Shown here: one piece after another, positions 2,588 to 15,316 of the stretch | How positions within the stretch are numbered: the first letter of the stretch is position 1 | Layout: the number at the start of each line of letters is the position of its first letter | Assembly (NCBI GenBank): GCA_027063755.1 | Contig: JAMORD010000231.1 | Coordinates: forward strand, 1 to 15,316 | Reading direction: 5' to 3' | Length of the DNA: 15,316 bases | Origin: a bacterium | GTDB lineage: Bacteria > Coprothermobacterota > Coprothermobacteria > Coprothermobacterales > JAADFF01 | Notes under the pieces: generated by a model | The model's database searches: none | Seen by the model: the letters and a program-made list of their open reading frames with translations, nothing else | What the model was told of the DNA's origin: nothing | Made by a program: the position numbers and the translations under genes

Positions 2588-3103
2588 TTACTTTTCTTCT
2601 TTAGGGGGTAGCACGGGGTCGGTAATGCACTTTTTACCAGGTCCACAGTCGTTTTTCTGTTCAAGGTCGCCCTTGATTTTATCTTTTACAGTTTCGTTGG
2701 CTGTTGTGGCCGTAGAGGCCGTTGTTGATGTAGATGCTGTGGCTGGGGCTACCAGTGTGCGAACGGTATTGCCCTTGACGCCACTTTCATCAGACTTGTA
2801 TGTTTCTACATTTTCCATATACTTGCCACCTTTCTGTAGGGCTACACGATTGCCACTGTGAGGTGCCCATATAAAGAGCGATAACGCCACTATGAGAATG
2901 ACAGCGATAGTGGCATAGGCCAGCTTATATACTGGTGAGGCATTAGTTCTCTTTACAGGCTCTTTATTTCCTTTTAGCATGCGAGCTATGGGGTCTACCT
3001 CCTCAACGACATTGGGAAACAACCACTTTATCCATAAGGGTATATCTTTGCCCTGCAGCCTCTTTTCTATGATAATATCTGCAATCTTATCTCTTATCTT
3101 CAC
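2588..3103 (-). CDS. single-pass membrane protein, probable anti-sigma factor
   Basis: 171 aa. A charged cytoplasmic-looking N-terminal part (1-58) is followed by one hydrophobic segment at about 61-80 (LAYATIAVILIVALSLFIWA), then an outside-facing region with an Ala/Thr/Ser-rich stretch at about 119-136 and a lysine-rich tail with Cys153 and Cys159. The GTG start at 3101-3103 lies inside the sigma gene (17-bp overlap), with GGGAG upstream; such coupling is typical of sigma/anti-sigma pairs. No HxxxCxxC zinc anti-sigma motif is present, so the anti-sigma role rests on position, topology and overlap, not on a recognised domain. The low-complexity segment could be a linker exposed to the cell surface. 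It could also be an unrelated membrane protein co-expressed with the sigma factor. Confidence 0.68.
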   Translation of the reverse strand: MKIRDKIADIIIEKRLQGKDIPLWIKWLFPNVVEEVDPIARMLKGNKEPVKRTNASPVYKLAYATIAVILIVALSLFIWAPHSGNRVALQKGGKYMENVETYKSDESGVKGNTVRTLVAPATASTSTTASTATTANETVKDKIKGDLEQKNDCGPGKKCITDPVLPPKEEK

Positions 3104-3572
3104 TGTCTATCATCTCCCTGAGCCTTCTGATGGCACGGTATTGTAGGCTTTTGATACCTGCCACAGACCTATTCATAGCATGTGCAACCTCTTTTATGCT
3201 CATGCCTTCTTTGAACCTTAGTGTTATCAGTGTTTTTTCGTCTGCAGGTAGCCTATCTACATATTGCCAGATATCAAATGTATCTTCGTCTTCTATGTTG
3301 TCTTCTGATGCCAGTATGATGTTGTCTATAGGTATCTTGGGATATTTGTTTTTTCTCATAAAGTCTACAATCTTGTTGCGAAGGGTCCTGTATATGAGCC
3401 CTCTGAGTGTTGATAAAGTTTTTATCTTGTCGGTATATTCCCATATTTTCAGTAGCGTGTCTTGCACGAGATCTTCGGCGTCTGCCCGTATACCAACATA
3501 TTTCATGGCAAACCCCAGTAGTTCGTCGTAAAGACTACCAATTATCTGTTCAACTTCGGCCTTTTTTACCAT
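3087..3572 (-). CDS. ECF-type RNA polymerase sigma factor
   Basis: 161 aa with the two domains of sigma-70 group 4 and nothing more. Region 2 covers about residues 10-75 and includes DAEDLVQDTLLKIWEY at 31-46, the core-binding and -10-recognition helix. A short acidic linker (90-99, EDNIEDEDTF) leads to region 4 at about 105-155, with LPADEKTLITLRFKEGMS followed by the helix-turn-helix IKEVAHAMNRSVAGIKSLQYRAIRRLRE. ATG at 3570-3572 follows GGAGTGA. The gene lies 37 nt downstream of the methyltransferase gene and overlaps the membrane-protein gene. It probably directs transcription of a small stress or envelope regulon; its targets are not visible and no obvious ECF-type -35/-10 pair for autoregulation was found upstream of the operon. 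Confidence 0.9.
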   Translation of the reverse strand: MVKKAEVEQIIGSLYDELLGFAMKYVGIRADAEDLVQDTLLKIWEYTDKIKTLSTLRGLIYRTLRNKIVDFMRKNKYPKIPIDNIILASEDNIEDEDTFDIWQYVDRLPADEKTLITLRFKEGMSIKEVAHAMNRSVAGIKSLQYRAIRRLREMIDSEDKR

Positions 3573-6090: not shown

Positions 6091-6107
6091 TATATGCAAT
6101 GCATATA
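6091..6107. repeat. perfect palindrome TATATGCA-A-TGCATATA, candidate operator
   Basis: Two perfect 8-nt arms around one central A, in the gap between the Nudix gene and the Mbx-type operon. It ends 19 nt before the extended -10 and covers the region just upstream of where a -35 would lie, a good position for a dimeric regulator. It does not match Rex, FNR/CRP or LexA consensus as I know them. Confidence 0.55.
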
Positions 6108-6126: not shown

Positions 6127-6135
6127 TGTTATAAT
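6127..6135 (+). promoter_or_regulatory. extended -10 promoter of the Mbx-type operon
   Basis: TGTTATAAT: a perfect TATAAT (6130-6135) with a TGn extension. No -35 match is seen at 17 nt (AAGCCT at 6107-6112), which fits an extended -10 promoter or one needing an activator. Transcription would start near 6142, leaving a leader of about 65 nt. Confidence 0.6.
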
Positions 6136-6196: not shown

Positions 6197-6200
6197 GAGG
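6197..6200 (+). promoter_or_regulatory. SD site deciding the mbxA start
   Basis: GAGG with an 8-nt spacer to the TTG at 6209. The in-frame ATG at 6203 is only 2 nt from it, and the GTG at 6200 overlaps it, so TTG fits the spacing used in the rest of the operon. Confidence 0.5.
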
Positions 6201-6208
6201 TGATGGCC

Positions 6209-6706
6209 TTGAAGCTACTCAAAGCACTTGGGCTTGGTATTGTGTTTTGGGGACTTTATCTCGTTCTTGTGGGAACAACTAATTCCCATGAGCTTCTTGT
6301 TGGAGCAATTGTGGCTTTTCTTATTGCTTATGGAACTGTAGAGATGGTGACCTCTTGGGAGGGAGGTCGGACAACAATTGGTGGTATTCTACTATTTATC
6401 TTTGTTTACATTCCATACTTCATCTATGCAATGATTAAGGCCAATCTTGATGTTGCTTACAGAGTACTGCATCCTTCTATGCCTATTAATCCGGCTGTTG
6501 TTTCCTTTAAGACTAATCTGAAATCTGACCTTGGCAAACTTATTCTCGCCAATTCCATTACATTGACACCAGGTACGATCACACTGGAAGTCAAAGATGA
6601 TGAGTTCTTTATCCACTGGATAGATGCTCCTACATCTGATCCAGAAGATGCCAAAGAGGCCATTTGTGGCACCTTTGAGAGACTTCTAATGAAGATTACG
6701 GGGTGA
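6209..6706 (+). CDS. mbxA: MrpE-like subunit (MbxA/MbhA type)
   Basis: 165 aa from TTG (the ATG at 6203 would add two residues). MrpE/MnhE family: two hydrophobic segments near the N-terminus (about 6-22 and 27-44), a third at about 54-75, then a soluble C-terminal domain with LGKLILANSITLTPGTITLEV, the family's most conserved block. In Mrp antiporters and MBH/MBX complexes this subunit belongs to the ion-translocating membrane module. It is the first gene after the promoter at 6127 and is followed after 6 nt by the MrpF-like gene. Symbol is given by synteny with archaeal MBX. Confidence 0.87.
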   Translation: MKLLKALGLGIVFWGLYLVLVGTTNSHELLVGAIVAFLIAYGTVEMVTSWEGGRTTIGGILLFIFVYIPYFIYAMIKANLDVAYRVLHPSMPINPAVVSFKTNLKSDLGKLILANSITLTPGTITLEVKDDEFFIHWIDAPTSDPEDAKEAICGTFERLLMKITG

Positions 6707-6712
6707 TGCGAC

Positions 6713-6970
6713 ATGGGTGTATGGTCTGATATTCTATTTGCTATTTTACTGTCGGCTATTATCTTAGGCCTTTACAGGCTTATAAAAGGTCCTACCAATG
6801 CCGATAGAATGGTTGCATTGGATATTCTCACCACTTCCACAGTGGTACTTATTGCTTTCTTGGCATGGTATTTCCAGCGTATTATTTACCTTGATATTGC
6901 TCTCGTATACGCCGCTTTATCTTTCATCGCCGTAATTGTTCTTGGTAGGTATCTGGAAGGGGGTGTATGA
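6713..6970 (+). CDS. mbxB: MrpF-like subunit (MbxB/MbhB type)
   Basis: 85 aa, three hydrophobic segments (about 5-24, 40-55, 58-78). The GPTNADRMVALD block at 26-37, with its conserved Arg and Asp37, is the MrpF signature; the Asp lies at a membrane boundary and is important for Na+/H+ exchange in the family. ATG at 6713 has GGGG 9 nt upstream. The stop at 6968-6970 lies just before the next start, so the two are translationally close. A membrane module subunit with no cofactor. Confidence 0.88.
   Translation: MGVWSDILFAILLSAIILGLYRLIKGPTNADRMVALDILTTSTVVLIAFLAWYFQRIIYLDIALVYAALSFIAVIVLGRYLEGGV
6957..6963 (+). promoter_or_regulatory. SD site deciding the mbxC start
   Basis: AAGGGGG with an 8-nt spacer to the GTG at 6972. 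The longest open frame starts at a TTG at 6936, well inside mbxB and without an SD. Confidence 0.65.
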
Positions 6971-6971
6971 T

Positions 6972-7409
6972 GTGAACGATAGGAAAGAGATTTTTTGGGG
7001 GATTGTTGTAACATTACTTATTGTTTTATTTGCTGCTTCTCCATTTTTACCTAAGCCATACAATATTTTTTCCAGAAATATTGTCGGTTGGACATTTATG
7101 AGTATTGGAGTGTTTTTTGTATTTCTCGGTTCTCTTGGTCTTGTAAGGATGCCCGATCTTTACTGCAGAATGCAAACAGCAACGAAAGTTACTACATTGG
7201 GTGCTTTGTCTATGCTTCTCGGAGTTTCTATCCTTGATAGCAGTGGTGTATTTGTACTCAAGGCTATCTTGATTGGTGTGTTCCTACTGATGACAGCACC
7301 TATTTCTGCATCTGTGCTTATTAGGGCAGCCCACGATAAAGGTGTTGCTCTTACCGAGAAAACTCAGTTTGACAGGTACGAGGAGTCTAAGGCAGGTGAA
7401 AAGGCATGA
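6972..7409 (+). CDS. mbxC: MrpG-like subunit (MbxC/MbhC type)
   Basis: 145 aa from GTG. An extra N-terminal hydrophobic segment (about 9-24) precedes the MrpG/MnhG core, where SIGVFFVFLGSLGLVRMPDLYCRM and the following ATKVTTLG are the diagnostic block; two further hydrophobic segments follow, then a charged tail of about 25 residues (HDKGVALTEKTQFDRY). MrpG usually is about 110-120 aa, so both the added N-terminal segment and the tail lengthen it. The start follows the SD at 6957. The stop overlaps the next start as ATGA at 7406-7409, implying coupled translation. Confidence 0.87.
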   Translation: MNDRKEIFWGIVVTLLIVLFAASPFLPKPYNIFSRNIVGWTFMSIGVFFVFLGSLGLVRMPDLYCRMQTATKVTTLGALSMLLGVSILDSSGVFVLKAILIGVFLLMTAPISASVLIRAAHDKGVALTEKTQFDRYEESKAGEKA

Positions 7410-7657
7410 CAATAGTAAATCTGTTGATATATGTGCTTATGGGTCTGATGATTGTCATGGCTATCATTGCCGCCGAGACAAAGAATTTGCTCTCGGCAGC
7501 TATCTTCTCAGGTTTTATTAGCTTGGTTGTATCTATGCTGTTTGTATATCTTCAGGCTCCCGATGTTGCCATGGCTGAGGCAGCTATTGGTGCAGCCCTC
7601 TCCCTGGCTATTATCCTGTTTGCCATTAAACGTACGGGGGAGGTGGAAGAAAAATGA
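7406..7657 (+). CDS. mbxD: MrpA C-terminal-like subunit (MbxD/MbhD type, DUF4040)
   Basis: 83 aa, three hydrophobic segments. The block LQAPDVAMAEAAIGAALS at about 49-66 is the hallmark of the MrpA C-terminal domain/MbhD family (NuoJ-related), whose acidic residues are placed in the proton or sodium path of the MBH and Mrp structures. ATGA overlaps join it to the genes on both sides (7406-7409 and 7654-7657). In Mrp antiporters this domain is fused to the large MrpA; as a separate subunit it is characteristic of MBH/MBX-type complexes. Confidence 0.88.
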   Translation: MTIVNLLIYVLMGLMIVMAIIAAETKNLLSAAIFSGFISLVVSMLFVYLQAPDVAMAEAAIGAALSLAIILFAIKRTGEVEEK

Positions 7658-8340
7658 GGCTTAAATATATACTTGCATGGATATTTGTTATACTCTTCGT
7701 AGGTGTTGTTGCATATTCTCTTCAGACAGAAGTTCCTTTTGGGCATGACCTAACGAAACTTGCCAAGTATTATGTGGACAATACGGCAAGAGAGACAGGT
7801 ATTCCCAATTTTGTTACGGCTATTGTTGTCTCTTACAGAGGCTTTGATACCCTTGGTGAGGTAACTGTGCTTCTGCTTGCCACATTAGGTGTTATTGGTA
7901 TCTTGCCATGGGAAAAACATAAGAAGGTGAAAAAGGCCCACCCTGTGCTTCTATGGGGTATAAGAATAGTATTTCCTATTATCTTGTTGGTTGGAGTATA
8001 TATCGTTATTCATGGACACTTGACACCGGGTGGAGGTTTCCAGGCCGGTGCTGTTGTAGCCTCTGCATTTCTGCTATATATGGTATCCCTGTCTGCTCAT
8101 TTGGATCTTGAAAGTTTCGCCTTTACAGAATCTATTGCGGGAGCAGGCTTTGCCCTTATTGGGGTTGCCGGTATCTTTGCCGGTGGTGCATTTCTATATA
8201 ACTTCTTGCCCAAAGGCAATCTCTTTGACCTGTTTTCCGGAGGTATTATCCCCATAGTCTACATTCTTATAGGCCTCAAGGTTAGCAGTGAGCTTACCGA
8301 GGTAGTCTCCCACATGATGAAGGGAGGGGCTGAGCAATGA
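7654..8340 (+). CDS. mbxF: fused MrpA-tail (MbhE-like) and MrpB (MbhF-like) subunit, MbxF type
   Basis: 228 aa combining two units that are separate in archaeal MBH. Residues 1-90 resemble MbhE: an N-terminal hydrophobic segment (5-22), then the YRGFDTLGEVTVL block at 61-73 and a hydrophobic segment to 85. Residues 95-228 are MnhB/MrpB: HGHLTPGGGFQAGAVVA at 120-136 is the family signature, with four hydrophobic segments. A charged linker (KHKKVKKAH, 88-96) joins them. There is no stop or frameshift between the halves. MBX-type clusters lack a separate E gene, which agrees with a fusion here. It overlaps both neighbours by ATGA. Confidence 0.87.
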   Translation: MRLKYILAWIFVILFVGVVAYSLQTEVPFGHDLTKLAKYYVDNTARETGIPNFVTAIVVSYRGFDTLGEVTVLLLATLGVIGILPWEKHKKVKKAHPVLLWGIRIVFPIILLVGVYIVIHGHLTPGGGFQAGAVVASAFLLYMVSLSAHLDLESFAFTESIAGAGFALIGVAGIFAGGAFLYNFLPKGNLFDLFSGGIIPIVYILIGLKVSSELTEVVSHMMKGGAEQ

Positions 8341-8693
8341 TGTTCTATATAGCTGCTTTGTCTTTGATTGGTATAGGACTATATGTTGTTCTAACAAAGA
8401 AGAATCTTGTTAAGGTACTTATAGGTATTTCTATCGCTGATAGTGGTGTGAACTTATTGCTTATATCTGTTGGCTATTTAAAGAATGGTACTGCTCCAAT
8501 ATTGGAAAAGGGACTCAATAAACCTATGGTAGACCCTGTGCCTCAGGCTCTGGTGCTTACAGCTATCGTTATCGGTGTCGCTACATTGGCTCTTGCTATG
8601 TCGGTTGTTATTGATGTAAAAAGGCATTTTGGTACTGTTGAGCTGGATAAGGTCATCAAGATGATGCGTGGAGGTGATAACGGTGACGCTTAA
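8337..8693 (+). CDS. mbxG: MrpC-like/NuoK-like subunit (MbxG/MbhG type)
   Basis: 118 aa with three hydrophobic segments. The KNLVKVLIGISIADSGVNLLLI block at about 22-43 and the ALVLTAIVIGVATLALAMSVV block at about 71-91 are conserved in MrpC and NuoK. The start is the first of two adjacent ATGs at 8337, overlapping the previous stop as ATGA, with GGGAGGGG just upstream. In the family it packs between the MrpB-like and MrpD-like subunits and carries part of the ion path. Its 3' end overlaps the next gene by 11 bp. Confidence 0.89.
   Translation: MMFYIAALSLIGIGLYVVLTKKNLVKVLIGISIADSGVNLLLISVGYLKNGTAPILEKGLNKPMVDPVPQALVLTAIVIGVATLALAMSVVIDVKRHFGTVELDKVIKMMRGGDNGDA
8670..8674 (+). promoter_or_regulatory. 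SD site deciding the mbxH start
   Basis: GGAGG with an 8-nt spacer to the GTG at 8683. The longer open frame begins at a GTG at 8668 that precedes the SD. Confidence 0.65.
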
Positions 8694-10098
8694 ATTCTTT
8701 GATCCGATGCTGATGATAGGTATATCTCTTGCCATAGTCTTTCTGATGCCTATTTGGAGAGCACTAGGTGGAAAGAAACTGGCTTGGGCCGTTTCCGTGC
8801 TTCTGTATGCCTTCAACACCCTATTTATGATAGGTGTTTCCTATAGGGCTACATTGTATCCAGAGGGCCTTATCGTCAAGATAGGTGGTTTTAATCCACC
8901 GTTTGGTATTGTGCTTCATGTGACATTTTGGGGGGCAGTGCTAAGCACATTTGTGTGGTTCGTGGCTTTTCTCTCCATTATGTATGCTTCCACGCGAAAT
9001 GATGCTGAACCAGCATATGTATACTATTCTCTGTTAACTCTTATAGCTCTCGGTTCTACTGGTATGTTCTTGACAGGTGATATCTTTAACCTATTTGTAT
9101 TTACTGAGATTACAGCTTTAGCGGCATTCGGTTTATCTGCCTTTATGAAGAAAAAGGAAACAGCTTATGCCACTATTAAATACATCATTATGGCAGAGGT
9201 TGCCTCTGCATTCCTTCTTGTTGCCATAGCCTTGCTCTACGGTAAGCTGGGAACACTAAATATGCTTGATGCCCATCAGACATTAAAAACCGTTGGTATG
9301 ACAGGTGCTATGGTTCTCAGTGTCTTGTTTTTCCTTATAGGCTATGGTGTTGAAGCAGAGATTTTCCCTCTGAATCTTTGGGCTCCCGATGTGTATAGGT
9401 ATGTACCTGAGGAAGTTATTGCCCTATTTATATCTGGTTCTTCTAAAGCCGCAGCTTTTGCATGGCTGAGAATGTGGGTAATGGTATTTGGTGTGCCACA
9501 GAAAATGTTACAAGTTATGTTGTGGATAGGTATTGTCACTTTTGCCTTTGCCGAAGTTATGGCATATTCTCAGAAAAACTTCCGTAGGGCTCTGGGTTAT
9601 GCCTCTTTAGGACAGGCTGGTCTTGTATTTGTGGCTATAAGCTTGGGTAGCGAGCTGGCTCTTAAGGCCGCATTTCTCCTTATGCTTAACCATATTCTCT
9701 CTGAAACTATTCTCTTCTACATTGCCGGTAATATTGGTGAAGATGGAGCTCCTGCCAATGTCAGAATACCTTTAGTATTCGGATTCTTGGGTGCTGTGTC
9801 TATGCCACCATTTATTGGTTTCTGGGGGAAAATATTCCTCTTTATGGCATTGGCAAAGGCAGGGTACTGGGTAATGTTTGTACTCATTGCCCTGTTCTCT
9901 ATAGTAGAGATTGCATATATGTATAAATGGTTTGTTTCCCTTTACAAGGGTACAGGCAAAATGGAGCTTGTTCGTAGTTTCTCTCCTATTATGCTAACAT
10001 TAGTTTCTTTTGCTATGTGGTTTTTGCCACTTATTCCTAAAGCCGTAAATCTTCTTGATATTGTTATTAAACCCTTTATTCAGAAAGGGGTGATGTAG
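8683..10098 (+). CDS. mbxH: MrpD/NuoN-like antiporter subunit (MbxH type)
   Basis: 471 aa polytopic protein of the Proton_antipo_M family, expected about 14 membrane helices. Key sites: Glu142 in NLFVFTE (the TM5 glutamate of the family), Lys255 in SGSSKAAAF (TM8 lysine), SQKNFRRALGYASLGQAG and His337 in LNHILSE. At the usual TM7 lysine position, the sequence reads GVEAEIFPLNLWAPD, so Glu224 stands there, with Glu226 two residues on; at the TM12 lysine position it reads SETILF, with Glu341. These substitutions are read by eye against NuoL/M/N motifs. GTG start from the SD at 8670. With the next gene it forms a pair of antiporter-like subunits. Confidence 0.88.
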   Translation: MTLKFFDPMLMIGISLAIVFLMPIWRALGGKKLAWAVSVLLYAFNTLFMIGVSYRATLYPEGLIVKIGGFNPPFGIVLHVTFWGAVLSTFVWFVAFLSIMYASTRNDAEPAYVYYSLLTLIALGSTGMFLTGDIFNLFVFTEITALAAFGLSAFMKKKETAYATIKYIIMAEVASAFLLVAIALLYGKLGTLNMLDAHQTLKTVGMTGAMVLSVLFFLIGYGVEAEIFPLNLWAPDVYRYVPEEVIALFISGSSKAAAFAWLRMWVMVFGVPQKMLQVMLWIGIVTFAFAEVMAYSQKNFRRALGYASLGQAGLVFVAISLGSELALKAAFLLMLNHILSETILFYIAGNIGEDGAPANVRIPLVFGFLGAVSMPPFIGFWGKIFLFMALAKAGYWVMFVLIALFSIVEIAYMYKWFVSLYKGTGKMELVRSFSPIMLTLVSFAMWFLPLIPKAVNLLDIVIKPFIQKGVM

Positions 10099-10099
10099 T

Positions 10100-12127
10100 G
10101 TGGGTATGCTAACGCACTGGTCTGTGCTAACTGTGCCAGAGGTGCTCGTGCTAAGCTCTATACTGGCAGCACTATTTGGCCTTATAAACAATGAGAAAGT
10201 AAAGCGTATTCTTCAAATGATTTCTACAACCGCTGCTGCTGCATTTGCCCTTTATGTAAATATTGGACTTGTTGCAGGATGGAAGAGTCTACCTAAAATG
10301 GCAGACCTTAAGCCTTTTACTGTGAAACTTACAGAAAATATTACTCTCAATTGGCAGTATTATTGGATAACAGGTACATTTGCCATATTGGTGATGGGTG
10401 TGCTTATGTTTGTACTCGCATATGCTCTTGAGACATTCAAAGATGATGAAAACACAACACCTTTCTATGTGCTAACACCACTTCTTGCTGCTGCCATTTA
10501 TATGACATTGGCTTCTGTAAACCTTATTGCCCTTTTCTTCTCTTGGGAACTCATGTCTTTTGTAGCTTTATTGATGCTTCTTTATTATGATCGTACAAAG
10601 GAAGGTGGTCCATGGCTTTATGCCTTCTGGTCTGGTATTGGTGCTATGTCAATGCTTGCGGGTATATTCCTGATGTATCTGGCATCTGATGGAAAGACTA
10701 CTTTTGGAATGTTTGAGCTTATGCAGACTGTACCAATATATACCATTAAGCATCCTTATCTAACATTGGCTGCTGTTCTGTTAATTGGTGTTCCATTTAT
10801 GATTAAGGCATCTGTTCCACCATTTCATACATGGGCACCTCGCACATATGGAAGCACACATCCATCTGTTGCAGCATTTTTCTCAGCTGCTTATTCTAAG
10901 GTTGGTATATTTGCCATGCTTATGTGGCTATACATATTTGTTGGTACTGTAATGAGTGGTAAATGGGTAACAACACTTGGAGCTAATTTTAGAAGTATAC
11001 CAACGGCATTTTTTATCTTGGCAGCACTGTTAGCGTTTGGCTCTGTCTTTACATCTCTTCTGGCTTTTGCACAGAAGGATGCCATGTATCTTCTCGCCTA
11101 CTCTTCTATGGGACAGCTAATGTATATGGTGATGGCACTTGTGATAGGCATAGGTATTACCGTAGGCTATCAGAAAGATATGAATATCGCCATGACGGTG
11201 TACACCCTTGGTTTCTTTGGTGCTATTTATCACGCTTATGCCCATGGTGTGTTTGAAATGGCCGCATATATGGCACTGGGTGCTGTCTATAAACGCTCTG
11301 GTGGTGAAACAGAGTTTAATAAACTGGGTGCTTATGCCCACCGTATGCCTGTGACATTCTTTATGGGTTTTCTTGCCATGCTCTCCACGGTTTCTATTCC
11401 TATGATGTGGGGCTTTGCATCTAAATATCTTATCTATCAGGCTGCCCTTTATGGTAGATTCTTTGTACTCTCTGCTATGGCCTTGATTGCCGGTACTGCC
11501 TCATTCCTATATGCATTCCGCTACATTCACGGTATCTGGTGGGGACAGCCTACGAAGGGATATGACTTCATGCATTCTGTTAGAGAGGTTTCTGCATGGG
11601 GTATTATCATTGCCCTAGTAGTTATAGGACTTACCGTGCTTGGTGGTGCAATGCCTGGTCAGGTTCTTAATTTTATAACCGGCAATTCTCTTAATCAGAT
11701 GGTTATGCAGAGTGCAATGGCCGGTGGGCCTCTTCTGATAGACAAGGCTATTTACATGGTTAATGGATTCTCTATTGTCCACTTTGGGTATTTGGCTATT
11801 CTCTTTACAGTGGGTATTTTAGTGGCATTGCTTGTTTATACTCTCGCTGGTGGTTCTCGCAAAGTTAACCTTGATGATTTCTACAACTCTTCAGAACCAT
11901 ATAGACCTGAGTGGCAAGTTCAGCTTATTGGAGCCTTCTATGGTCCTATTGAGAGGGTTATTGAACCATATTTTAAGATATCTATTGAAAGGGTATATAA
12001 CTGGTTTGGAGATATATTTGGCTGGTTTGCCTCGTATATTGAAAGCTGGAACACTGGAGATACCCGTGATTATGCATGGGCACTGGCAGGTCTTGTTATC
12101 CTGCTTATGGTGCTCTGGGTATTTTAA
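10100..12127 (+). CDS. mbxH': second NuoL/MrpA-like antiporter subunit with lateral-helix-like tail (MbxH' type)
   Basis: 675 aa. Residues about 10-590 are a Proton_antipo_M protein with the canonical charged residues: Glu150 in FFSWELMSF (TM5), Lys236 in FMIKASVPPFHTWAP (TM7), Lys267 in AAYSKVGIF (TM8) and His382 in HAYAHGVFE; the TM12 lysine position reads Glu386. Residues about 594-675 form an extra amphipathic region (RKVNLDDFYNSSEPYRPEW, then YGPIERVIEPYFKISIERVYNW) ending in one membrane segment (about 657-674), resembling the MbhI/NuoL lateral-helix arrangement. MBH has a separate MbhI; here none follows. GTG at 10100 has GGGG 9 nt upstream and starts one base after the mbxH stop. An internal start at the Met 2 codons later is less likely. 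Confidence 0.88.
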   Translation: MGMLTHWSVLTVPEVLVLSSILAALFGLINNEKVKRILQMISTTAAAAFALYVNIGLVAGWKSLPKMADLKPFTVKLTENITLNWQYYWITGTFAILVMGVLMFVLAYALETFKDDENTTPFYVLTPLLAAAIYMTLASVNLIALFFSWELMSFVALLMLLYYDRTKEGGPWLYAFWSGIGAMSMLAGIFLMYLASDGKTTFGMFELMQTVPIYTIKHPYLTLAAVLLIGVPFMIKASVPPFHTWAPRTYGSTHPSVAAFFSAAYSKVGIFAMLMWLYIFVGTVMSGKWVTTLGANFRSIPTAFFILAALLAFGSVFTSLLAFAQKDAMYLLAYSSMGQLMYMVMALVIGIGITVGYQKDMNIAMTVYTLGFFGAIYHAYAHGVFEMAAYMALGAVYKRSGGETEFNKLGAYAHRMPVTFFMGFLAMLSTVSIPMMWGFASKYLIYQAALYGRFFVLSAMALIAGTASFLYAFRYIHGIWWGQPTKGYDFMHSVREVSAWGIIIALVVIGLTVLGGAMPGQVLNFITGNSLNQMVMQSAMAGGPLLIDKAIYMVNGFSIVHFGYLAILFTVGILVALLVYTLAGGSRKVNLDDFYNSSEPYRPEWQVQLIGAFYGPIERVIEPYFKISIERVYNWFGDIFGWFASYIESWNTGDTRDYAWALAGLVILLMVLWVF

Positions 12128-12140
12128 GGGGGTGTGAGAT

Positions 12141-13100
12141 GTGAATACAGCAACTGTAGCAGGGGCTGCTTCTGCGGGTGCTAAATTTTTGGGTGCCCTT
12201 GTATTGACATTAAAAGTGCTTGTGTATCTAATTCTTATGGTTGCAATAGGGTTATTCCTGATGGGTATCTACAGGAAATTTAGTGCTCGTGTTCAGTACA
12301 GAGTAGGTCCACCTATATGGCAGCCATATATTGATGTCATAAAACTCTTGTCTAAGAAAGACGCTGCAACGAAGAATTGGGTCTTTGATCTTGGTGCGGT
12401 TATGGGATTTGGTGGTCCACTGATATTACTCTTATTCTTGCCATTAGATAGTATAGTTGGATTGAATTTCCATACGAAGGGTGATTTGATACTGATTTTG
12501 TACCTTGCTGTTGTTGGTCCTCTTGGTTTTGCACTGGCAGCATCTGTAGGTGCTTCTCCGTGGGGTGCTATAGGTGTTGGTCGTGCTTTGTCTATGATGC
12601 TTGGCTATGAACTGCCATTTATACTTGGCATTTTGGCTGTTGTGGCCAAGGATGGTACCATTATGCTTCATAAAGTAGCTGCAGCTCAGAGCATATGGAA
12701 TCCTGCAGGCTGGCATTATTTCCAATGGCCTTTGATACTGGCTGCTATTGGGGCACATATAGGTTTACAAGGTATGCTTTCTGAAAAGCCTTTTGAACAA
12801 TCCGTGGCACCGCATGAAATAGGTTCTGGTATCATGGTTGAATTTGGTGGAAGATATCTGGGTATGATGCTTCTTATGAAAGCTGCTTCTTTAATGGCTG
12901 AGCTCGGTTTATTTGCTATATTCTTTTTAGGTGCAACAACTCCACTTGATACAATAATAAAAATCTTCATTTTGTACATCATAGCAATATCGTTTGATGC
13001 TGTTTTGGGTAGATTTCGTCCCGACCAGGCATTTGTCGTTCTTTGGAAGTGGCCAACAATTATTGCATTGCTTGGTCTACTTCTAACAGTTTTCGCGTGA
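12141..13100 (+). CDS. mbxM: NuoH-like membrane anchor subunit (MbxM type)
   Basis: 319 aa, about eight membrane segments. NuoH/respiratory complex I subunit 1 signatures are present: SARVQYRVGPP at 48-58, GRALSMMLGYELPF at 147-160, and the acidic loop EKPFEQSVAPHEIGSGIMVEFGGRY at about 215-239 with Glu215, Glu219, Glu226 and Glu234. In complex I this subunit holds the quinone cavity and links the peripheral arm to the pump; in MBH/MBX it links the catalytic arm without quinone. GTG at 12141 with AAGGGGG 8 nt upstream. Its place before the NuoB-like gene is the MBX order; in MBH it follows MbhL. Confidence 0.91.
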   Translation: MNTATVAGAASAGAKFLGALVLTLKVLVYLILMVAIGLFLMGIYRKFSARVQYRVGPPIWQPYIDVIKLLSKKDAATKNWVFDLGAVMGFGGPLILLLFLPLDSIVGLNFHTKGDLILILYLAVVGPLGFALAASVGASPWGAIGVGRALSMMLGYELPFILGILAVVAKDGTIMLHKVAAAQSIWNPAGWHYFQWPLILAAIGAHIGLQGMLSEKPFEQSVAPHEIGSGIMVEFGGRYLGMMLLMKAASLMAELGLFAIFFLGATTPLDTIIKIFILYIIAISFDAVLGRFRPDQAFVVLWKWPTIIALLGLLLTVFA

Positions 13101-13111
13101 GGTGATGTAAG

Positions 13112-13645
13112 ATGGCAGAGTGGTTGAAACTTATTGATAAAGCAAGATCACGTAGTATATGGATGCTTATGTACTGCACAGGTTGTGGCGCTATGGAGAT
13201 GCCTCCAGCCATGACCTCAAGATTTGATATGGAGCGTTTTGGTATTATGCCGATGGCAACTCCCAGACAGGCAGATGTGATACTTGTAACAGGATATGTT
13301 ACTAAGAAGACGCTCAAGCGTATTATATATGCCTATGAGCAGATGCCGGCTCCAAAGTGGCTTGTTGCTCATGGTTCTTGTCCTATCAACGGTGGGGTTT
13401 ACTGGGATAGCCATGCCACAGTAAACAGATTAGATTTGTTCTTACCCGTTGACCTGTATGTTGCCGGTTGTATGCCAAGGGCTGAAGCCAACATGAAAAT
13501 GTTTACTGAACTGATAGACATGGTAGCCAAAGGAGAAGCCCGTGGTTGGGAAGAGTATGAGAAAAATAAGGCTTATTACAAGGAAAATCAGCGTAAACTC
13601 TTTGGATACGACCTTGTCTTTACAGATGGGAGGTCTGCCCTATGA
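13112..13645 (+). CDS. mbxJ: NuoB-like FeS small subunit (MbxJ type)
   Basis: 177 aa of the NuoB/hydrogenase small subunit family. Cys22 and Cys25 (CTGC), Cys90 (GSCPINGG) and Cys120 (AGCMPRAE) would bind one [4Fe-4S] cluster. The CxxC spacing is that of group 4 hydrogenase-like small subunits, whereas NuoB has two adjacent cysteines. SRFDMERFGIMPMATPRQADVILVTG at 36-61 and LPVDLYVAGC are also characteristic. It passes electrons from ferredoxin-like subunits to the active site in the MbxL-like partner. ATG at 13112 has GAGG 9 nt upstream; the stop overlaps the next start as ATGA at 13642-13645. A C-terminal extension of about 40 residues (from 138) is charged. Confidence 0.92.
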   Translation: MAEWLKLIDKARSRSIWMLMYCTGCGAMEMPPAMTSRFDMERFGIMPMATPRQADVILVTGYVTKKTLKRIIYAYEQMPAPKWLVAHGSCPINGGVYWDSHATVNRLDLFLPVDLYVAGCMPRAEANMKMFTELIDMVAKGEARGWEEYEKNKAYYKENQRKLFGYDLVFTDGRSAL

Positions 13646-14232
13646 GAGTAGAAGAAGTTGTTAAGGCGATAAAGGATAAATTTGGACTTGAAGTAGAAAA
13701 TCCCTATCCAAGAAGACTGAGGGTAAAGATACCTGTAGATGGCAAGTCTGATGAAGAGAGAAGGCAGGTGCTCAGGGACTTACTTCAATATGCAAAGGAG
13801 ATAGAATTTCAGCATATGTCATTTATTACATGTGTGGATTTCATTAAAGAGGGTAGATTTGAACTGAATTATGGATTGTGGTCTTATACGATACCTACCA
13901 TGCTTGTGGTGAAATATGACCTTGATAGGGAAAATCCTAAGCATATAACGGTGGTTGATATATGGAAACCAGCTAAGATTTGGGAACAAGAAGTTCATGA
14001 GATGTTTGGAGTTGAGTTTGAAGGTAATCCGAGATCCTTTGAACCTTATGTGCTTGAAGATTGGGATAGTATTCCTCCACTGAGAAAAGATTTTGATCCT
14101 GTTCAGTATCTCAAAGAACATCCTATGCAGGGAGCAGGATATGATCCACTGCCATATGCTAATCTTGTAGAGAAGAATCTTGAACAGCCAACAGTACAGG
14201 AGACAGGGGGTGACGAGGGTGCCAATTCGTGA
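13642..14232 (+). CDS. mbxK: NuoC-like 30-kDa subunit (MbxK type)
   Basis: 196 aa soluble subunit. The NuoC signature is WEQEVHEMFGVEFEGNP at 114-130, followed by SIPPLRKDF at 143-151 (LRKDF is the conserved end of the domain). Residues 54-100 form the usual beta-sheet part (HMSFITCVDF, then GLWSYTIPTMLVVKYDL). The tail 152-196, rich in Pro, Gln and Glu, has no recognisable motif. There is no cofactor; it is a structural partner of the NuoD-like subunit, with which it is fused in some organisms. It is translationally coupled by ATGA to the NuoB-like gene and overlaps the next gene by 14 bp. Confidence 0.91.
   Translation: MRVEEVVKAIKDKFGLEVENPYPRRLRVKIPVDGKSDEERRQVLRDLLQYAKEIEFQHMSFITCVDFIKEGRFELNYGLWSYTIPTMLVVKYDLDRENPKHITVVDIWKPAKIWEQEVHEMFGVEFEGNPRSFEPYVLEDWDSIPPLRKDFDPVQYLKEHPMQGAGYDPLPYANLVEKNLEQPTVQETGGDEGANS
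14205..14210 (+). promoter_or_regulatory. SD site deciding the mbxL start
   Basis: AGGGGG with an 8-nt spacer to the GTG at 14219. The in-frame GTG at 14210 overlaps the SD and is unlikely to be used. Confidence 0.62.
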
Positions 14233-15316
14233 ACTTGTTGTCACATATGACTTTCCAACAGATTTGCACTTAGGTCCACAGCACCCTGGTATTCACGGAA
14301 ACTTTGCCTATATCTTGAAAGTTGATGGTGAGATTATTCTTGAGGCAAAGATTGTACCAGGTTATCTTCACCGTGCCTTTGAAAAACTCATGGAACGCAG
14401 AACATGGATTAACAATATAGCCCTTATACCCCGTGTTTGTGTTCCCGAGCCAGATGTTAATGAATATGCATACAATGCAGCTATTGAACGTATAGCCGGT
14501 TGGGAAATACCACCAAGGGCTAAATATATAAGAACTGTTGTCTTGGAAATGGCTCGTATTTCCTCTTATTTAATGTACCTTTCATCTATGGGTGGTGGTG
14601 TTGGTGTATATCCACTGGCACAATGGTCGGTTGGTGATAGAGACTATATTCTTGATCTCTTTGAGGCACTGACCGGTGCCCGTGTTTACCATATTTTCAT
14701 GATTGCCGGTGGAGTTAGAAGAGATATACCAGAAGGATGGTTAGATAAACTGGAGGAAACATTGAAGTACCTTGAGGGTAGACTAAAAGAATACGATAAG
14801 CTTATCATGAAAAATGCCGTGGTCCAGCGAAGACTTGTCGGCTTGGCACCCATCACCCCTGAATATGCCATGGAACACGGTGTTACCGGTCCAAACCTCA
14901 GGGCTACTGGTGTGCCATATGATCTAAGAAAAATTGATCCATATGCCGCATACGATGAGCTTGACTTTGAAGTTGTTACTGAGAAGTACGGTGACGCTTG
15001 GTCAAGGTTTATGGTGAGGAGGAGAGAGATAGAACAGTCTATAGATCTGCTTAGACAGCTTATAGATAAGTTGAGAAAAGACAATACACCGCATATTCAC
15101 CAGCCATATAGCGGTTTGGCGTTTAAGGTGCCACCGGGTGAGGCATATGTGCATATAGAGTCTACCAAGGGTGAATTTGGTTACTATGTATGGTCTGATG
15201 GTGGCTTCAATCCATACAGGGTATTTGTTAGAGGACCAACAACCTCTCATGCCGGTGTGCTCATGGAAGATATAGCCGTTGGTCAGCAGCTTGCTGACTT
15301 CTCTCTGATTGACGGT
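14219..15316 (+). CDS. mbxL: NuoD/[NiFe]-hydrogenase-large-subunit-like protein (MbxL type), 3'-truncated
   Basis: Open to the window edge: 366 codons and no stop. Family landmarks: HLGPQHPGIHGN at 17-28, GYLHRAFEKLMERR at 48-61, PRVCVPEPDVNEYAYNAAIERIAG starting at 71, MARISSYLMYLSS near 110-122, then VTGPNLRATGVPYDLRK and GEAYVHIESTKGEFGYYVWSDGG. At the first active-site motif, where hydrogenases have CxxC, it has Cys74-V-P-Glu77; where complex I has R-x-D-Y with the quinone tyrosine, it has R72-V-C-V. It is therefore neither a normal hydrogenase nor a normal quinone reductase subunit, which fits MBX/MBS. The C-terminal cysteine motif lies beyond the window and cannot be checked. GTG start from the SD at 14205. 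Confidence 0.9.
   Translation, partial: MPIRELVVTYDFPTDLHLGPQHPGIHGNFAYILKVDGEIILEAKIVPGYLHRAFEKLMERRTWINNIALIPRVCVPEPDVNEYAYNAAIERIAGWEIPPRAKYIRTVVLEMARISSYLMYLSSMGGGVGVYPLAQWSVGDRDYILDLFEALTGARVYHIFMIAGGVRRDIPEGWLDKLEETLKYLEGRLKEYDKLIMKNAVVQRRLVGLAPITPEYAMEHGVTGPNLRATGVPYDLRKIDPYAAYDELDFEVVTEKYGDAWSRFMVRRREIEQSIDLLRQLIDKLRKDNTPHIHQPYSGLAFKVPPGEAYVHIESTKGEFGYYVWSDGGFNPYRVFVRGPTTSHAGVLMEDIAVGQQLADFSLIDG

Follow-up and report, generated by a model that had tools for sequence, protein, structure and literature searches.

Positions 6209 to 15316 of the stretch of DNA analysed here (15,316 nucleotides in all; hereafter, the window) carry an operon that encodes, with a probability of roughly 0.8, a complex of the MBS/MBX type, namely, an ion-pumping, membrane-bound sulfane-sulfur reductase that would pass electrons from ferredoxin to polysulfide. 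The type of the complex is seen in the gene content and gene order of the operon, in phylogeny and in diagnostic residues. As such, the MBS/MBX complex of this Dictyoglomota bacterium is a further, and unsurprising, case of a type known from thermophilic archaea and bacteria.

Organization of the operon

The window spans the whole of contig C231 in a genome that comprises 1.5 Mb in 251 contigs and is 88% complete. Twelve of the 13 MBS/MBX genes lie within the window, uninterrupted and in the order MbxA-B-C-D-F-G-H-H'-M-J-K-L, with the 3' end of MbxL being lost at the contig end. In the list of open reading frames, these appear as 12 intact ORFs on one strand, the ends of which abut or overlap, from position 6200 or 6209 to the end of the window. 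Identities were assigned using Pfam and NCBIfam profiles, while seven of the predicted products were compared with all solved structures in the PDB. The features are as follows:

6091-6107, no strand assigned: 17-bp palindrome TATATGCAATGCATATA, immediately 5' of a TATAAT box at 6130-6135
6209-6706, plus strand: MbxA/MbsA, MrpE-like (PF01899, MNHE, 1.1e-40)
6713-6970, plus strand: MbxB/MbsB, MrpF-like (PF04066, 6.8e-16)
6972-7409, plus strand: MbxC/MbsC, MrpG-like (PF03334, 5.5e-24)
7406-7657, plus strand: MbxD/MbsD, C-terminal MrpA part, MbhD (PF13244, 1.7e-19)
7654-8340, plus strand: MbxF, the equivalent of MbsE, MbhE+MnhB fusion of 228 aa (PF20501 and PF04039)
8337-8693, plus strand: MbxG/MbsG, MrpC/NuoK-like (PF00420, Oxidored_q2, 7.5e-23)
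8668-10098, plus strand: MbxH/MbsH, MrpD-like antiporter/pump (6U8Y_H, 204 bits; next match, 106)
10100-12127, plus strand: MbxH'/MbsH', second antiporter/pump, with C-terminal horizontal-helix region (6U8Y_X)
12141-13100, plus strand: MbxM/MbsM, NuoH-like membrane anchor (NuoH profile, 6e-28)
13112-13645, plus strand: MbxJ/MbsJ, NuoB-like, proximal [4Fe-4S] (NuoB profile, 7e-56)
13642-14232, plus strand: MbxK/MbsK, NuoC-like (PF00329, 30 kDa, 9.6e-25)
14210-15316, plus strand: MbxL/MbsL, NuoD-like, cut at the 3' end (49 kDa profile, 6e-71)

A scan of genome contigs returned a sole close relative at the DNA level, namely, a contig (L005/L037) of a 'Dictyoglomota bacterium' MAG, with L being 94% identical. 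This congener contig reaches 2 kb past the window's end, such that both the end of L and the N gene could be read. The same run of 13 genes was found in G001, from the genus of the window, and in G003, from another genus of the same order. G001 and the congener contig contain the same genes and are very probably one record. Two further bacterial lineages, represented by the fully read G021 and G057, also present the order A-B-C-D-F-G-H-H'-M-J-K-L-N, together with the same L and J motifs. In G002 and G004, from a third genus of the window's order, MBH is carried, along with an Ech-like set in G004; no MBS-type L was found in either. Given the frames, the profile and PDB matches, and the recurrence of the gene order across lineages, the operon is far beyond chance.

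The MbxA ORF is open from a GTG at 6200, with the TTG at 6209, the start initially proposed, being the likely one in view of the ribosome-binding site AGAGGTGAT. MbxC most likely begins at GTG 6972, where the 94%-identical relative has an ATG, while MbxL, open from TTG 14180, likeliest begins at GTG 14210, a GTG in the relative as well. MbxC contains some 35 additional N-terminal residues relative to its homologues in G003, G021 and G057, a segment that probably provides one membrane helix more than is found in those proteins.

The Pyrococcus furiosus MBS (6U8Y; PMC7684303) offered the best PDB match for all seven window subunits compared, namely, D, the E/F fusion, H, H', M, J and L. MbxD scored 73 bits against 6U8Y_D and 48 against MBH, MbxM 179 bits against 6U8Y_M and 92 against MBH, MbxJ 224 bits against 6U8Y_J (next, 120), and MbxH' 174 bits against 6U8Y_X across residues 18-671 (next, 82). 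For MbxL, 386 bits to 6U8Y_L were obtained, as opposed to 237 to complex I and 138 to MBH. MbxF matched 6U8Y_E over its full length (183 bits), while in MBH, it matched two separate chains, E and F. The Proton_antipo_M profile recognized both pump subunits, H (3e-36) and H' (9e-24). With N from the congener added to the 12 subunits in the window, the thirteen-subunit set of the P. furiosus complex is accounted for, including the E/F fusion, the H and H' pumps, an NuoH-like M ahead of J-K-L-N, the three-cysteine motif of J, the single cysteine per former NiFe pair of L and a stand-alone N. The two complexes differ in that L is 50% identical, H' is 675 rather than 618 aa long and C has its extra N-terminal segment. 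By contrast, the P. furiosus MBH (6CFW), while sharing related subunits and the Mrp module, has one antiporter-like pump, NiFe ligands and separate E, F and I subunits.

The ORFs, profiles and 6U8Y matches confirm the MBS/MBX gene order that an earlier note had recognized in this region, just as the paired pumps, the E/F fusion, the J and L motifs and the L tree agree with its choice of MBX/MBS over MBH. Its description of that order as archaeal is overstated, since bacterial MBX operons have the same order and have already been described. The related clusters it had placed in Thermotogae are indeed on record, with bacterial MBX having been described in Thermotoga (PMC9431562), as well as in Zhurongbacter (PMC10356935).

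Diagnostic residues of J and L and the phylogeny of L

In P. furiosus MbsJ, the cluster-containing site includes a loop three residues shorter than that of MBH and is liganded by C28, C93 and C123, with C25 being too far away, while MbsL has lost two of the four NiFe cysteines, such that C85 and C385 remain, one per pair (PMC7684303). In window J, Cys 22, 25, 90 and 120 correspond to MbsJ residues 25, 28, 93 and 123, with identical spacing, and alignment revealed the loop to be likewise three residues shorter than in MBH; the three-residue insert is present in the MBH J of the host itself. The J motif reads CTGC and not the tandem CC of complex I NuoB. In window L, RVCVPEPD, containing Cys87 (numbered from TTG 14180), appears in place of the hydrogenase RxCGxC, and the congener L terminates in ...SFDICPPDLDK, with a single cysteine instead of DPCxSC. 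Both ligand motifs of group 4 [NiFe] enzymes (L1, RxCGxC; L2, DPCxSC) are absent from the window-type L. Across 43 MBS-type L proteins, C87 and V88 (ORF numbering) are invariant.

A tree of L proteins (78 rows, LG+C20, with a single archaeal MBS row) separated [NiFe], Nuo and MBS proteins into three groups, each with a support of 100. The window L fell within the MBS clade (100/100), apart from [NiFe] group 4 and complex I, thereby answering, for L, the phylogenetic question raised in the earlier note, and clustered with its counterparts from G001 and G003 (100/98). Branching among P. furiosus, the window's clade and the other bacteria was without resolution.

The N subunit and the distribution of bacterial MBX

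When other contigs of the window's own MAG were searched for the N subunit of MBS, the N of MBH alone was found, and MbxN was therefore taken from the congener. There, just as had been anticipated for the DNA past position 15316, the remainder of L is directly followed by an MbxN-like gene. It encodes a stand-alone protein of 176 aa with two CxxCxxCxxxCP motifs, CIGCGNCSRICP and CTFCALCVDVCP (2x[4Fe-4S]), the best PDB match of which is MbsN of 6U8Y.

The N proteins of G021, G057 and G051 have 592-615 aa, with Pfam detecting Fer4_20 and Pyr_redox_2 domains behind the ferredoxin part, an arrangement seen in NfnB-type NAD(P)H reductases. Of 39 other bacterial MBS loci, 38, namely, all those with a readable N, have an NfnB-like part downstream of L, the exception being L057, where the sequence ends at 2.4 kb; fusion of this part to N was confirmed by Pfam on three of these loci. 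Unlike these MBX of other phyla, those of the genus of the window and of its sister genus have a short N, like MbsN, and no NfnB-like part was found within 13-20 kb around their operons. The complex of this Dictyoglomota lineage is therefore of the ferredoxin-only, archaeal type. The literature searched, with most subscription papers lying outside the search, contained no explicit description of an N-NfnB fusion in MBX, and the fusion is not claimed to be unreported.

At a threshold of E<=1e-100, the MBS model matched 70 of 103 genomes of one bacterial phylum and nine of 54 of another, although one of these nine (L058) is Nuo by motif. Together with the Thermotoga and Zhurongbacter literature, these counts indicate that MBX is common in bacteria and not restricted to Archaea. 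The same literature search, again with most subscription papers outside it, returned no explicit report of MBX in Dictyoglomota; a first report is not claimed.

Alternative readings of the operon

It is conceivable, if unlikely, that this MBS-family complex instead reduces a different disulfide, a quinone-like compound or NAD(P)+, with a histidine of L aiding proton-coupled reduction. His39 of window L aligns without gaps to Nqo4 H38 (GPQHPGIHGNF versus GPQHPSTHGVL), and this position is occupied by His in 37 of the 43 MBS-type L proteins, by Pro in four, by Thr in one and by Glu in P. furiosus; in this last protein, the loop is shorter by one residue and its alignment is not secure. The P. 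furiosus MBS is described as being without equivalents of Nqo4 H38, Nqo4 Y87 and MbhL E21; the MbhL E21 equivalent is also absent from window L. Since most bacterial MBX L proteins keep the histidine, its absence characterizes P. furiosus and does not define the family, and the active-site chamber of the window complex is accordingly not identical to that of P. furiosus. Mbx was, moreover, formerly named ferredoxin:NADP+ oxidoreductase (cited in PMC6349859). Nonetheless, Nqo4 Y87, the partner of H38, gives way to Val throughout the 43 MBS-type L proteins, the window's included, the three-cysteine arrangement of J is associated with S-S cleavage, neither an NAD(P)H-binding subunit nor the NfnB-like part of other bacterial MBX is present here, and homologues are induced by S0 (PMC9431562, PMC10356935).

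It is very improbable that the window holds a simple Mrp Na+/H+ antiporter with unrelated Nuo genes behind it, for while the first genes are indeed Mrp homologues, the operon is continuous, M-J-K-L are conserved across several lineages, the N- and C-terminal parts of MrpA are split as in MBS, and F is fused in the manner of MBS. A group 4 [NiFe] hydrogenase of the MBH/Ech type, driven by ferredoxin and pumping ions, is almost certainly not encoded, despite all subunit families being common to MBH and a true MBH being encoded elsewhere in the host, and was rejected on the basis of residues and the L tree, given that one cysteine stands for each CxxC pair of L (RVCVPEPD, ICPPDLDK), the NiFe ligands and, in J, the MBH loop are missing, and L lies outside the [NiFe] clade and is far closer to MBS L than to MBH L. 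Of the marks of a hydrogenase named in the earlier note, a C-terminal CxxC is not present in L, the end of which was read in the congener; as for maturation genes, hypD of the related genome G003 adjoins a separate MBH locus and not MBS. Complex I (Nuo) was likewise rejected, considering the CTGC motif, the Val in place of Y87, the MBS-type membrane arm and the L tree.

Proposed function and physiology

Reading the operon as MBS/MBX, and by analogy to the solved P. furiosus complex, ferredoxin would serve as donor, polysulfide as acceptor and Na+ as the exported ion. Polysulfide reduction is a sound inference. Reduced ferredoxin would deliver electrons to the two [4Fe-4S] clusters of N, from where they would reach the proximal cluster of J, predicted to be held by three cysteines (site-differentiated). 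The open iron of this cluster would split S-S bonds of polysulfide in a chamber that J, L and M form together. The energy would be relayed through M and a three-loop system to the H' and H pumps, with the Mrp part (A, B, C, D, F and G) presumably exchanging protons for Na+. The pump lysines and glutamates are mostly conserved, including E58 of D, E147, E229, K260 and K388 of H, all five of E150, K236, K267, H378 and K442 of H', and E226 and E234 of M. In contrast to P. furiosus, the window has Leu at the position of MbsH H330 and lacks MbsM E104.

The host contains four POR gamma matches, in keeping with ferredoxin-based fermentation and abundant reduced ferredoxin. Inspection by eye of the c subunit of its F-type ATP synthase revealed no clear Na+ signature. 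A separate MBH locus, in the order K-L-A-B-C-D-E-F-G-H-M-J-N, encodes an L with RVCGICSM and DPCMSC, the best PDB match of which is 6CFW. With a [NiFe] MBH in addition to MBS, the host probably alternates between forming H2 and sulfide, as do Thermococcales, with sulfur likely acting as the switch between MBH and MBS, as it does in P. furiosus and Zhurongbacter. Thermotoga maritima MBX is alike by description, with 13 subunits and S0 induction (mbxA up 4.36-fold; PMC9431562). Zhurongbacter thermophilus 3DAC, although of a different phylum and likened by description and not by sequence, is also a thermophilic bacterium with MBH and a 13-gene MBS cluster; S0 boosts its growth and its MBS genes, 10 of 13 of which are up with S0 (PMC10356935).

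The palindrome upstream of MbxA is conserved in the congener contig, with the centre base alone altered. Perfect copies are limited to this site in the window's own genome and to the same place in G001. Together with the TATAAT box, it possibly serves as operator/promoter of the operon; a promoter/terminator scan across the region gave results at or near chance level.

Evolutionary implications

The short N and the kept histidine are the two modest evolutionary points of this operon. It is a rather remote thought that this bacterial branch, retaining a ferredoxin-only N and a complex-I-like histidine, could reflect the ancestral state of both archaeal MBS and the NAD(P)H-linked bacterial MBX with N-NfnB, and might reduce a proton-requiring acceptor in addition to polysulfide. 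The operon provides a documented case of MBS with a stand-alone N, from a little-studied phylum of thermophiles that also has MBH, while the loss of the quinone-site histidine in P. furiosus MBS is seen not to be general in the family. The sampled loci suggest two forms of bacterial MBX operon, one with a ferredoxin-only N and the other in which N is joined to an NAD(P)H reductase. This split, together with the kept histidine, bears on the proposed path from MBH via MBS to complex I.

Sequences upstream of and within the MBS operon

A perfect palindrome lies 5' of the MBS operon, and the MbxC protein begins with an additional hydrophobic stretch:

window 6091-6107: palindrome, TATATGCANTGCATATA
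window 6972-7100: additional N-terminal hydrophobic segment of MbxC, about 35 residues

The palindrome is kept across two species, and no second perfect copy was found in the genome of either. It may be the site at which a dedicated regulator acts. The hydrophobic segment is present in MbxC of the window's genus and absent from the homologues in G003, from another genus of the order, and in G021 and G057, from other bacterial phyla.

Other genes of the window and host

Elsewhere in the window, a possible regulatory gene pair was noted:

window 2588-3572, minus strand: sigma-70 family (ECF-like) factor, then a probable membrane protein

The latter, for which no Pfam match was obtained, is perhaps the anti-sigma factor of the former. 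The host genome has genes (L101, L104) for an F-type c subunit as well as for a duplicated K subunit of V/A type, so the organism may possess two rotary ATPases.

The separate MBH of the order

The order also encodes a [NiFe] MBH:

L036:4068-7217 (host genome, contig C15); also L038, L040, L044 and L049: [NiFe] MBH operon

Here, the Mrp genes are preceded by K and L, and H is one protein of 1,021-1,049 aa. Since the H proteins scanned (L036, L040) each contain two Proton_antipo_M domains, this hydrogenase may carry two fused pumps, whereas P. furiosus MBH has one.

Related clusters in other genomes

Two further arrangements were identified:

L046:6960-17448 (genome G018): complex-I-like cluster with three antiporter genes
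L041:4541-6370, L042:6677-8524, L043:1067-2845 and 35 further loci: N fused to an NfnB-like reductase

In the G018 cluster, J contains CSGCC and L contains RICFMDDF, with the C-terminal end MCHGDIDR. In the L-protein tree, this L is sister to the MBS clade (support 94/81) on a long branch; the cluster is possibly an intermediate between MBS and complex I. In MBX operons of other bacterial phyla, N and an NfnB-like FAD/NAD(P)H reductase form a single fused protein, which suggests NAD(P)H-linked MBX in those phyla.
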